Part shown: piece after piece, positions 4,314 to 6,117 of the stretch
How positions within the stretch are numbered: the first letter of the stretch is position 1
Layout of the letters: each line of letters opens with the position of its first letter
Source of the DNA: Malaciobacter marinus
GTDB taxonomy: Bacteria > Campylobacterota > Campylobacteria > Campylobacterales > Arcobacteraceae
Assembly (NCBI RefSeq): GCF_003544855.1
Contig: NZ_CP032101.1
Location: 682,001 to 746,000 of the forward strand
Length of the DNA stretch: 64,000 nucleotides
Direction of reading: 5' to 3'
The notes under the pieces: model-generated
What the model was told of the DNA's origin: nothing
Seen by the model: only the letters and a program-made list of their open reading frames with translations
Databases searched by the model: none
Program-made: the position numbers and the translations under genes

Positions 4314-5273
4314 ATGTATAAACTTACAAAAAAAGATTGGGAAATTAGTGAAAATGAAGTAACTTCAAAAGAGTTATTTGATAATAGAAGAACTTTCTTA
4401 AAACTTGGTGCTGCAAGTGTAATTGCAAGTGGTTCTATTATGGAAGCTTTAGCAAAAGAAAAAATGCCTATTAAGAATCTAAAATTTACAGAAGATCCAA
4501 ATCCCAATAATCTAATACTTAATACTTATGAACAGATAACTTCACATAATAACTTTTATGAGTTTACTACAAATCAAAGAAAAGTAAAAGATATGGCTCA
4601 TACTTTAAATACGAAAAATTGGACTATAAAAGTTGATGGATTGGTTGAAAAACCAATGACTTTAGATTTTGATGATTTGTTAAAAAAGTTTGCTTTAGAA
4701 GAAAGAATTTATAGATTTAGATGTGTTGAGGGTTGGTCTATGGTTGTTCCTTGGATTGGATTTGAGTTGTCTAAACTTATCAAATATCTAAAACCTTTAT
4801 CTAGTGCAAAATATATAAGATTTGAAACTTTATATGATGAGCAGATGTTCCCTGATCAAAAAAATAAAGTTTTCAATGCTATTGATTATCCTTATGTTGA
4901 AGGTCTTAGAATGGATGAAGCTATGAATGAACTTACACTAATGGCTGTTGGCTTATATGGTTCATCAATGCCAAAGCAAAATGGGGCTCCAATTAGGCTA
5001 ATAGTTCCTTGGAAGTATGGTTTTAAATCTATTAAATCAATTGCAAAAATCTCTTTTACAGATAAAGAACCACTTAATACTTGGCAAAAAGAGAATCCAA
5101 AAGAGTATGGCTTTTATGCAAATGTAAATCCAAAGGTTGACCACCCAAGATGGTCACAAGCTAGGGAGAGAGTTTTAGGTAAATTCTTTAAACAAAATAC
5201 ATTAATGTTCAATGGTTATGAAAAACAAGTTGCACATTTATATAAAGGTATGGACTTAACAAAGGATTTTTAG
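4314..5273 (+). CDS. msrP: protein-methionine-sulfoxide reductase catalytic subunit MsrP
   Basis: A 319-residue periplasmic molybdopterin enzyme that repairs oxidised methionine in envelope proteins. A twin-arginine signal is at residues 25-30 (RRTFLK) followed by a hydrophobic stretch ending in EALA, indicating Tat export with cofactor bound. The molybdenum-ligand cysteine is C137 in RFRCVEGW, and [19 protein letters not shown] is typical of YedY/MsrP. The AAAGGA ribosome site precedes the ATG. The stop overlaps the start of msrQ by one base, so the two are one operon. Confidence 0.92.
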
Positions 5274-5824
5274 TGAAATATTTATTATTTGTGCTTTTTT
5301 TATTACCTTTAGTAGTTACATCATATGAATTGTTTATTTTACAAAATGTAAATGATCCAATAAAATATATATATACAGTAACAGGTGTTATTTCAACAGT
5401 TTTGTTATTTTTTAGTATTTGTTTATCTATGATAAGAAAATGGGTTAATCTAATAAAATATAGAAAAATGATAGGACTTTTTGGATTTTTCTATGCATTT
5501 TTACATTTTTTAAATTTTACTATTTTAGATGCACAACTTGATTTTAGTTTTATAATAAAACAAAGTTTAGATAAGCCATTTATTTATATTGGAATGATTG
5601 CATTTTTTATTCTTTTATTTATGGCTATTACATCAAAAAAGAATCTATTTAAAAAGTACAATAAGTATCATAAGCTAATTTACTTTGCTTTAATACTAAT
5701 AACAATACATTTTGTGATGGCTCAAAAGTCATTGACTTTTATTCAATTTTCATACATAATATTAATTTTAGCAATAGGATATTTTAAACTTTTACAACAA
5801 ATTATTAAAAGAAATACAATATAA
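5273..5824 (+). CDS. msrQ: haem-binding membrane subunit MsrQ
   Basis: A 183-residue ferric-reductase-like protein with five to six membrane segments. It passes quinol or flavin-derived electrons to MsrP. Histidines suitable for haem are seen in FLHFLNF, KYHKLIYF and ITIHFVM. The GTG start at 5273 shares its first base with the msrP stop codon. Its length is somewhat shorter than the about 210 residues of E. coli MsrQ. Position directly after msrP makes the call firm despite low sequence identity in membrane regions. Confidence 0.85.
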   Translation: MKYLLFVLFLLPLVVTSYELFILQNVNDPIKYIYTVTGVISTVLLFFSICLSMIRKWVNLIKYRKMIGLFGFFYAFLHFLNFTILDAQLDFSFIIKQSLDKPFIYIGMIAFFILLFMAITSKKNLFKKYNKYHKLIYFALILITIHFVMAQKSLTFIQFSYIILILAIGYFKLLQQIIKRNTI

Positions 5825-5828
5825 GTGT

Positions 5829-5886
5829 ATAGTTAACTATTTGTTAACTATTTGTTGAGATTTAGTTAATACTATACTGTTATAAT
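5829..5886 (+). promoter_or_regulatory. operator-like TTAACTA repeats and promoter of candidate small RNA
   Basis: A 12-base palindrome ATAGTTAACTAT (5829-5840) begins a perfect tandem duplication of TTAACTATTTG (5833-5843 and 5844-5854). An inverted copy, TAGTTAA, follows at 5863-5869. A TATAAT -10 box lies at 5881-5886. The arrangement suggests a regulator site just upstream of a promoter. Which protein binds is unknown. Confidence 0.5.
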
Positions 5887-5891
5887 TTTTA

Positions 5892-6022
5892 CAGAAATAA
5901 GCAAGATACGGACTTACTTATTTTCCAGTAAAAATAGACAGCGAATTAGAAGTTTTCCGACAACTAATTTTTTATGTTTCCTTGTGTGTAAAAAAGGCCT
6001 TCTTTTGAAGGTCTTTTTTTTT
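5892..6022 (+). ncRNA. candidate intergenic small RNA with its own promoter and terminator
   Basis: No reading frame of note occupies this stretch. It starts just after a TATAAT box and ends in a strong intrinsic terminator (arms 5991-6002 and 6007-6018, tetraloop TTTT, then T-run). Two further hairpins can be drawn: AATAAGCAAG with CTTACTTATT (one mismatch) and AATTAG with CTAATT. About 130 bases long. It matches no small RNA I recognise: the core motifs of SRP RNA, tmRNA and RNase P RNA are absent. It could also be the 3' untranslated tail of msrPQ. Confidence 0.45.
5991..6022 (+). terminator. intrinsic terminator
   Basis: AAAAAGGCCTTC, loop TTTT, GAAGGTCTTTTT and a continuing T-run. It separates the msrPQ and small-RNA transcript from the downstream lipid-modification operon. 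Confidence 0.85.
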
Positions 6023-6040
6023 GCCCAAAAAATCCAAATA

Positions 6041-6091
6041 TTAACTAACAAATATTAACTACTAAAAAACTTTATATGATTATATTATAAC
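6041..6091 (+). promoter_or_regulatory. promoter region of the SDR to DUF3833 operon with two TTAACTA boxes
   Basis: TTAACTA occurs at 6041-6047 and again at 6055-6061, 14 bases apart. A -10-like TATAAC is at 6086-6091 and the ribosome site AAAGGA precedes the ATG at 6118. The same heptamer occurs in the promoter of the candidate small RNA about 200 bases upstream, suggesting shared control. Confidence 0.45.
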
Positions 6092-6117
6092 TCAATGCTT
6101 GAAATAAAGGACATGCT

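Follow-up and report, generated by a model that had tools for sequence, protein, structure and literature searches.

The window analysed here is a stretch of 64,000 nucleotides from Malaciobacter marinus (contig NZ_CP032101.1, positions 682,001 to 746,000); positions below are those of the window unless a genome is named. Between msrQ and a lipid operon that runs from an SDR gene to a cyclopropane synthase gene, it holds a free-standing small-RNA gene at 5832-6022 on the plus strand (Table 1). The original prediction, made from the letters alone, had placed there a TATAAT element, two internal hairpins and a terminator, all of which are borne out by the sequence and its fold. The tandem 11-base duplication and the palindrome that it had noted upstream are both present: the former is exact, occupies 5832-5842 and 5843-5853 and is part of a four-unit array, and the latter (ATAGTTAACTAT) occupies 5829-5840.

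Table 1. Features of the small-RNA gene and its borders (window coordinates)
Feature	Position	Strand	Basis or remark
Flanking genes: end of msrQ, start of SDR gene	5824, 6118		open reading frame positions; the unit lies between
Promoter box, four half-sites 11 bp apart (TTAAC/TTAAC/TTGAG/TTAAT)	5832-5870	+	sequence; htrA-trained matrix
Half-site starts	5833, 5844, 5855, 5866
-10 element TATAAT	5881-5886	+	10 bp past the box; without a -35 hexamer
Small RNA, about 130 nt	5893-6022	+	fold and sequence model; 5′ end inferred from the -10
Hairpin 1	5894-5924	+	fold
Hairpin 2	5943-5970	+	fold; sequence and length vary between genera
Seed TATGTTTCCTTGTGTGTA, containing the anti-Shine-Dalgarno UUUCCUU	5973-5990	+	conservation; pairing with receptor starts
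Intrinsic terminator	5990-6022	+	stem 5990-6019, then T to 6022

The predicted fold of 131 nt is better than those of 198 out of 200 dinucleotide shuffles (z -2.44). By sequence alone, the unit has its own promoter and a rho-independent terminator, and contains no conserved ORF. With the -35 hexamer missing, 5881 is not listed as a promoter by a simple sigma-70 scan, and the same scan flags the terminator hairpin on the minus strand only. No Rfam family reaches its gathering threshold in the window, in line with the earlier remark that the RNA resembles no known family; at a relaxed threshold there are 15 weak matches, all well under their gathering scores. Two neighboring features deserve mention. 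At 6035-6095, ahead of the lipid operon, there is a direct repeat (CAAATATTAACTAA/CAAATATTAACTAC) and a ACTACTAAAAAACTTT..ATGAT stretch; both are also found before the SDR gene in another locus (L004), and the segment is probably the lipid operon's own regulated promoter. MsrQ itself (5273-5824) falls short of its NCBIfam cut-off, with 94.6 bits against 130, though it follows a clear MsrP.

The unit is widespread among relatives. A DNA search of 60 of them found it throughout the genus, in each of the five further genomes, and outside it in several genera. Alignment of 15 copies by MAFFT and RNAalifold gave no consensus pair, because the loops and hairpin 2 differ in length, and the model built from these copies (R1) is therefore sequence-only. 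Far beyond chance, it matches 65 of 104 Arcobacteraceae genomes (58 of the 88 of good quality) in 7 of 20 genera, which confirms the predicted non-coding unit of about 130 bases. An exact search of the whole collection with TTTTATGTTTCCTTGTGT returned 38 stretches, and 18 Campylobacterota records among them, bearing Arcobacter-type names or labelled uncultured Campylobacterales/Campylobacteraceae, have the full unit; in the remaining 20 the full unit was not seen by eye. Some genomes have more than one copy: two lie 185-222 bp apart, start to start, in six genomes (G002, G004, G005, G036, G108 and G110) and about 1 kb apart in two (G023 and G109).

The seed of the RNA is almost constant. The sequence TTTCCTTGT is unchanged in 63 of the 65 genomes (61 by script; G020 and G124 by reading), and variants occur in G117 and G076, the latter reading TTCTCCTATA. 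Seven loci at first appeared to lack a copy; on re-examination three had exact seeds, two had variants and two gave no find, although the copy in one of these, G076, was then read directly. For the closer comparison 70 distinct copies were read, five of 75 pattern finds having been dropped as spurious. It should be noted that the copy finder itself required TTTCC-T, so that the outer bases alone give an unbiased measure among the 70 copies, and the count by genome is the fairer one. In the window the seed can also be read as a tiny ORF, ATG TTT CCT TGT GTG TAA (MFPCV). The frame, however, is kept in 12 of 70 copies; most copies of group g19 have no ATG and those of the Aliarcobacter type have no stop, while the nucleotides stay the same. 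The chance that the seed is a coding sequence is close to negligible.

The terminator hairpin, by contrast, is variable. Counted by distance from the loop, with no strict alignment, the terminator has 61 distinct stems among the 70 copies (very short in three copies, 1-3 pairs), with C-G, G-C, T-A and A-T at equal loop distances. The stems thus covary: both sides change and the pairing is kept. A lack of hairpin conservation in relatives had been named in advance as part of what would refute the prediction, and this is not what is seen. Hairpin 1 has 39 distinct stems, a few of just 2-4 bp, among the 63 copies with a recognised -10; over the same copies the first 40 nt fold at a mean of -8.8 kcal/mol, versus -3.4 for shuffles. 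In the modelled folds of the 70 copies the mean unpaired values are 0.66-0.80 over TTTCCT and 0.30-0.55 over the next TGTG. In the window copy the values over TTTCCT are 0.15-0.76, and the seed is predicted to be partly paired.

Half-sites spaced by 11 bp, as in the promoter box, are known from the sites of OmpR/PhoB-type response regulators. When the M. marinus genome was searched with the box pattern allowing up to two mismatches, ten places were found, versus 14 for the backwards-read control. At most one mismatch is seen at three of the ten: this sRNA, 2225478 (an sRNA-like unit) and 2681359, which lies immediately before htrA. In this genome htrA is adjacent to, and followed by, genes for a response regulator of the OmpR type and a histidine kinase. 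The kinase scores 389.9 bits, over the NCBIfam ArsS-family cut-off of 250; the response regulator passes no cut-off among the 25 families listed. All 30 htrA loci examined, the best 30 from 96 genomes in which htrA was matched, have the box TTAAC-N6-TTAAC-N6-TT... AGTTTAC upstream, and the AGTTTAC box recurs in 13 of 14 further htrA promoters from sRNA-bearing genomes, several of them with a degenerate first half-site.

A matrix trained on htrA promoters only recovers the sRNA promoter as the sole site in the window above 12 bits (23.8 bits). With the same matrix 55 of 70 sRNA promoters exceed the 99th percentile of 1500 random 120-mers, and 49 exceed their maximum (2.3 bits). The 15 promoters at or under the 99% line belong to the Aliarcobacter type (group g11, 12 promoters) and to g19 (3); the g11 low scorers have a reduced box, and one is cut by the end of its contig. 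Exactly 10 bp separate the box from the -10 in 54 of 70 copies; the remaining 16 have no recognisable -10 where it was scored. By eye, the htrA promoters have the same gap. We infer that the htrA-linked regulator drives transcription of the sRNA. Among ten genomes without a match to the model, the repeat box stands before htrA in five (G014, G013, G030, G019 and G115); the box and the RNA are therefore separable. Upstream of htrA in G018, G089 and G034, also without a model match, no box was found. Two further such genomes, G026 and G008 (L369 and L370), have a partial htrA box consisting of the last half-sites and AGTTTAC, a hint that the regulator's site may have changed stepwise.

The neighborhood of the unit suggests two other origins for it. 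Being directly upstream of the lipid operon, in the same direction and with a terminator at its end, the unit could be a cis-acting leader or attenuator of that operon, from SDR to cyclopropane synthase. The comparative counts argue otherwise: the script places an SDR gene downstream in 3 of 70 loci, to which reading adds G002, and a UvrD-type helicase there instead in 58 of 70. No constant downstream operon gene, which would mark a riboswitch or attenuator, was thus seen. Second copies carry their own box and terminator, and a seed kept so exactly is unexpected in a leader; we consider a leader highly improbable. The persistence of the unit at loci that the lipid operon does not adjoin supports a separate sRNA gene. 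Alternatively, with msrQ directly upstream here and a relative of it upstream in 22 of 70 loci, the unit could be simply the 3′ end of msrPQ with its terminator and no separate promoter. Yet in the other 48 loci no upstream msrQ is detected at the cut-off, the neighbor being another gene or an msrQ that scores under it. The box and -10 keep their fixed spacing in most copies, second copies included, and the seed and hairpin 1 are conserved, not the terminator alone. An msrPQ tail is accordingly very unlikely. (The neighbor script overlooked G124 and G020 and picked up one spurious copy too many in each of G004, G002 and G109; loci where it found no seed were counted as misses.) Since an SDR gene is rarely downstream and msrQ is upstream in 22 of 70 loci, the RNA is most likely neither a lipid-operon leader nor tied to msrPQ. 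The tiny ORF, the lipid-operon attenuator and the msrPQ tail are all three rejected. The original claim of an independent, regulated small-RNA gene is supported by the box shared with htrA, the constant seed, the pairing-preserving changes in the terminator and the extra copies.

The RNA appears to have siblings. A second sRNA-like unit (L025, 1501-1660, at about 2225477-2225640 of the M. marinus genome; L024 in G003) sits between a gene for a small membrane protein and one for a mechanosensitive-channel-domain protein. It has a box, a hairpin and a seed, CATTGTTCTTCC, with a terminator visible in L025; the htrA-trained matrix gives it 3.6 bits in M. marinus and 10.2 bits in G003. A third (L358, G036:C9, about 95175-95350) has a like box, a hairpin with a GCGAA loop, a terminator-like hairpin and the seed ACTCTCCTAA (ACTCTCC). 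The sibling units and the G076 variant all hold a piece complementary to Shine-Dalgarno-like sequences.

What the seed may pair with was approached from two sides. The first was a search for its exact complement, ACACAAGGAAA, which has 31 matches in the six genomes of the genus, nine of which are copies of the sRNA. Among the remaining 22, 13 are placed at a start codon, and ten of these 13 genes encode envelope proteins, judged by family or signal sequence. The 13 comprise four TonB-dependent receptors, two MlaA, two family-3 solute-binding proteins, one porin, one lipoprotein-like protein without a Pfam family, two PrsA (one scanned) and one acyl-carrier-type protein. A control pattern, CCAAAAGGAAA, lies before a possible start in 2 of 29 examined matches (32 listed), but it is a poor control because Pro-Lys-Gly codons are favoured. 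A narrower pattern, AAGGAAACATG, has three matches in the six genomes, none convincing; one precedes a potential start that falls within an open frame.

The second approach took the TonB-dependent receptors as a family, chosen by PF00593 and not by complementarity. There are 69 PF00593 matches in the six genomes of the genus, 88 in ten genomes that lack the sRNA (none in G026) and 105 in ten sRNA-bearing genomes of other genera. The lacking genomes have no R1 match, and with laxer filters nothing better than E 0.06. Receptor loci were taken mostly from the best matches down (69/69, 70/88 and 50/105, in the same order), and start codons were picked by one scoring scheme identical for all groups; 67, 69 and 48 starts were found, in 62, 66 and 48 distinct start regions. 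Loci retrieved for a match to the seed were kept out of the statistics.

Pairing with the seed at -14 kcal/mol or better is found at 30 of 62 receptor starts in the genus and at 11 of 48 in other sRNA-bearing genera, but at 3 of 66 in the lacking ones. Against the lacking genera the Fisher probabilities are 8e-9 for the genus and 0.007 for the other genera, and those of rank tests 1e-5 and 0.011. Sites of the CACAAGG type show the same order (18/62, 0/66 and 4/48), and a smaller first round (29, 29 and 28 starts) went in the same direction. When the flanks of the seed were shuffled around the same anti-Shine-Dalgarno, none of 300 such seeds did as well as the true one in the genus, while 251 did so in the lacking genera and 26 in the others. 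Control genes of the genus rarely reach -14 (1 of 48 non-secreted; 3 of 19 secreted-like non-receptors). Collapsing the starts by receptor family weakens the contrast to p 0.008 (at 40% identity) or 0.035 (50%) for the genus against the lacking genera, and 0.06 or 0.05 for the other genera; where families are shared, the energy is lower in the genus in 9 of 11 (40%) or 10 of 16 (50%). M. marinus itself has 17 receptors, 15 of whose starts are listed; of the two others, one has the same start as a G003 receptor, at -6.7, and one is absent from the list. Of the 15, 5 pair at -14 or better. The conserved seed is complementary to receptor starts beyond chance in the genus and more weakly elsewhere, and the signal in the other sRNA-bearing genera is modest.

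Drawing together the anatomy, the conservation, the shared box and the family-specific complementarity, we prefer the view, to which we give about two chances in three, that the RNA is a trans-acting sRNA of about 130 nt that forms the non-coding branch of an envelope-stress response of the HtrA/ArsRS-CprRS type and represses the mRNAs of outer-membrane proteins. The OmpR-type regulator of the htrA operon would bind the 11-bp-spaced TTAAC repeats and activate the htrA operon together with the sRNA and one or more of its siblings, all from promoters without a -35; envelope stress would be the inducing signal. The RNA would present its near-constant seed, UGUUUCCUUGUGU, just 5′ of the variable terminator hairpin, to CACAAGG(A)-type ribosome-binding sites of TonB-dependent receptors, the complementarity to which was described above; starts of MlaA, porin and solute-binding protein genes may also be paired, in one or two genomes each. 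Covering of the Shine-Dalgarno sequence would then block translation, and fewer envelope proteins would be made while the HtrA protease clears the damaged ones. Because the RNA appears to be co-induced with an envelope protease and carries a tag that matches receptor starts, the receptors are probably shut off under envelope stress. Against this view speak the partial pairing of the seed in the window copy, the strong match at 5 of 15 listed receptor starts in M. marinus, the weaker target signal in other genera and by receptor family, the 3 of 19 secreted-like controls that reach -14, the 15 low-scoring promoters and the separability of box and RNA.

A real regulated sRNA need not work chiefly in this way. 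It could activate its targets, bind a protein (CsrA, by way of hairpin 1) or act mainly on genes other than receptors. The seed matches at prsA and acyl-carrier-protein starts and the hairpin-1 loops ACGGA or GCGGA in the genus would fit such modes, but other genera do not retain a GGA loop, and within the genus the enrichment for receptors belongs specifically to the true seed. We regard a different main mode as unlikely, while granting it a real share of the probability. Repression of receptor mRNAs by the seed might in turn be one part of a wider scheme, a Campylobacterota envelope-stress regulon in which the regulator of the htrA operon controls sibling sRNAs with different anti-Shine-Dalgarno seeds (UUUCCUUGUG, UUGUUCUUCC, ACUCUCCUAA and UUCUCCUAUA) and in which the receptors of the genus have gained a co-evolved CACAAGG address tag. 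The siblings appear to keep the box and the hairpin-seed-terminator layout, and CACAAGG may be read as an extension of the ribosome-binding site confined, in this comparison, to genus receptors as against those of lacking genera. This scheme is tentative, and we put it at somewhat under even odds.

If the proposal is true, the RNA founds a new family for which both an inducer and targets are predicted. To our knowledge, few trans-acting sRNAs have been worked out in Campylobacterota, and the question arises whether these bacteria throttle outer-membrane protein synthesis by sRNA during envelope stress, as enterobacteria do by unrelated means. Receptor starts with and without the tag in related genera offer a natural comparison for the evolution of sRNA target sites.

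Several of the closest known systems belong to the same phylum. In Campylobacter jejuni htrA presumably adjoins cprRS, and we take CprR to be of the OmpR type. CprRS contributes to the control of htrA and other envelope genes, and the available text mentions no sRNA arm, unlike the candidate here (PMC4518328). Another study of C. jejuni, from 2026, in the part available, ties HtrA to NssR and reports no two-component gene induced by LL-37; the box described here is not tested in that text (PMC13189099). Helicobacter pylori ArsR is described, in the portion at hand, as having no clear consensus site (PMC11162790). The 5′ureB antisense RNA of H. pylori resembles our case in its ArsRS-type control, the kinase here passing the ArsS-family cut-off; it is, however, antisense to ureB and under negative ArsRS control according to the accessible text (PMC8322730), whereas the present RNA is a trans-acting candidate and probably activated. 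NikS/HPnc4160 of H. pylori pairs with mRNA leaders and inhibits translation, and its targets include several outer-membrane proteins, as the same text relates (PMC8322730). Compared here by description, it is alike in phylum and in leader pairing but is controlled by NikR and phase variation, unlike the htrA-type box; H. pylori is further stated there to have neither Hfq nor ProQ (PMC8322730).

Among the open-licence papers searched, as far as their accessible text goes, no Arcobacter sRNA of such kind was found. A survey of Arcobacter sp. L intergenic regions (Stav 2019), in the part available, leaves most of its novel regions unnamed, and the present region may stand among them (PMC6429828). 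A further close system is that of MicA and RybB of E. coli and Salmonella, which are stress-induced and repress mRNAs of outer-membrane proteins, pairing with them at the 5′ UTR, according to the available text (PMC7602753). Envelope-stress sRNAs that repress outer-membrane proteins are, on that account, a known kind (PMC7602753), and the RNA proposed here would act likewise. MicA and RybB are, by the same account, sigma-E driven and Hfq dependent (PMC7602753), whereas the RNA here shares a two-component-type box with htrA and has its seed immediately 5′ of the terminator. As judged from its sequence, the RNA is a putative new family of this type, differing in its inducer and in where the seed lies.
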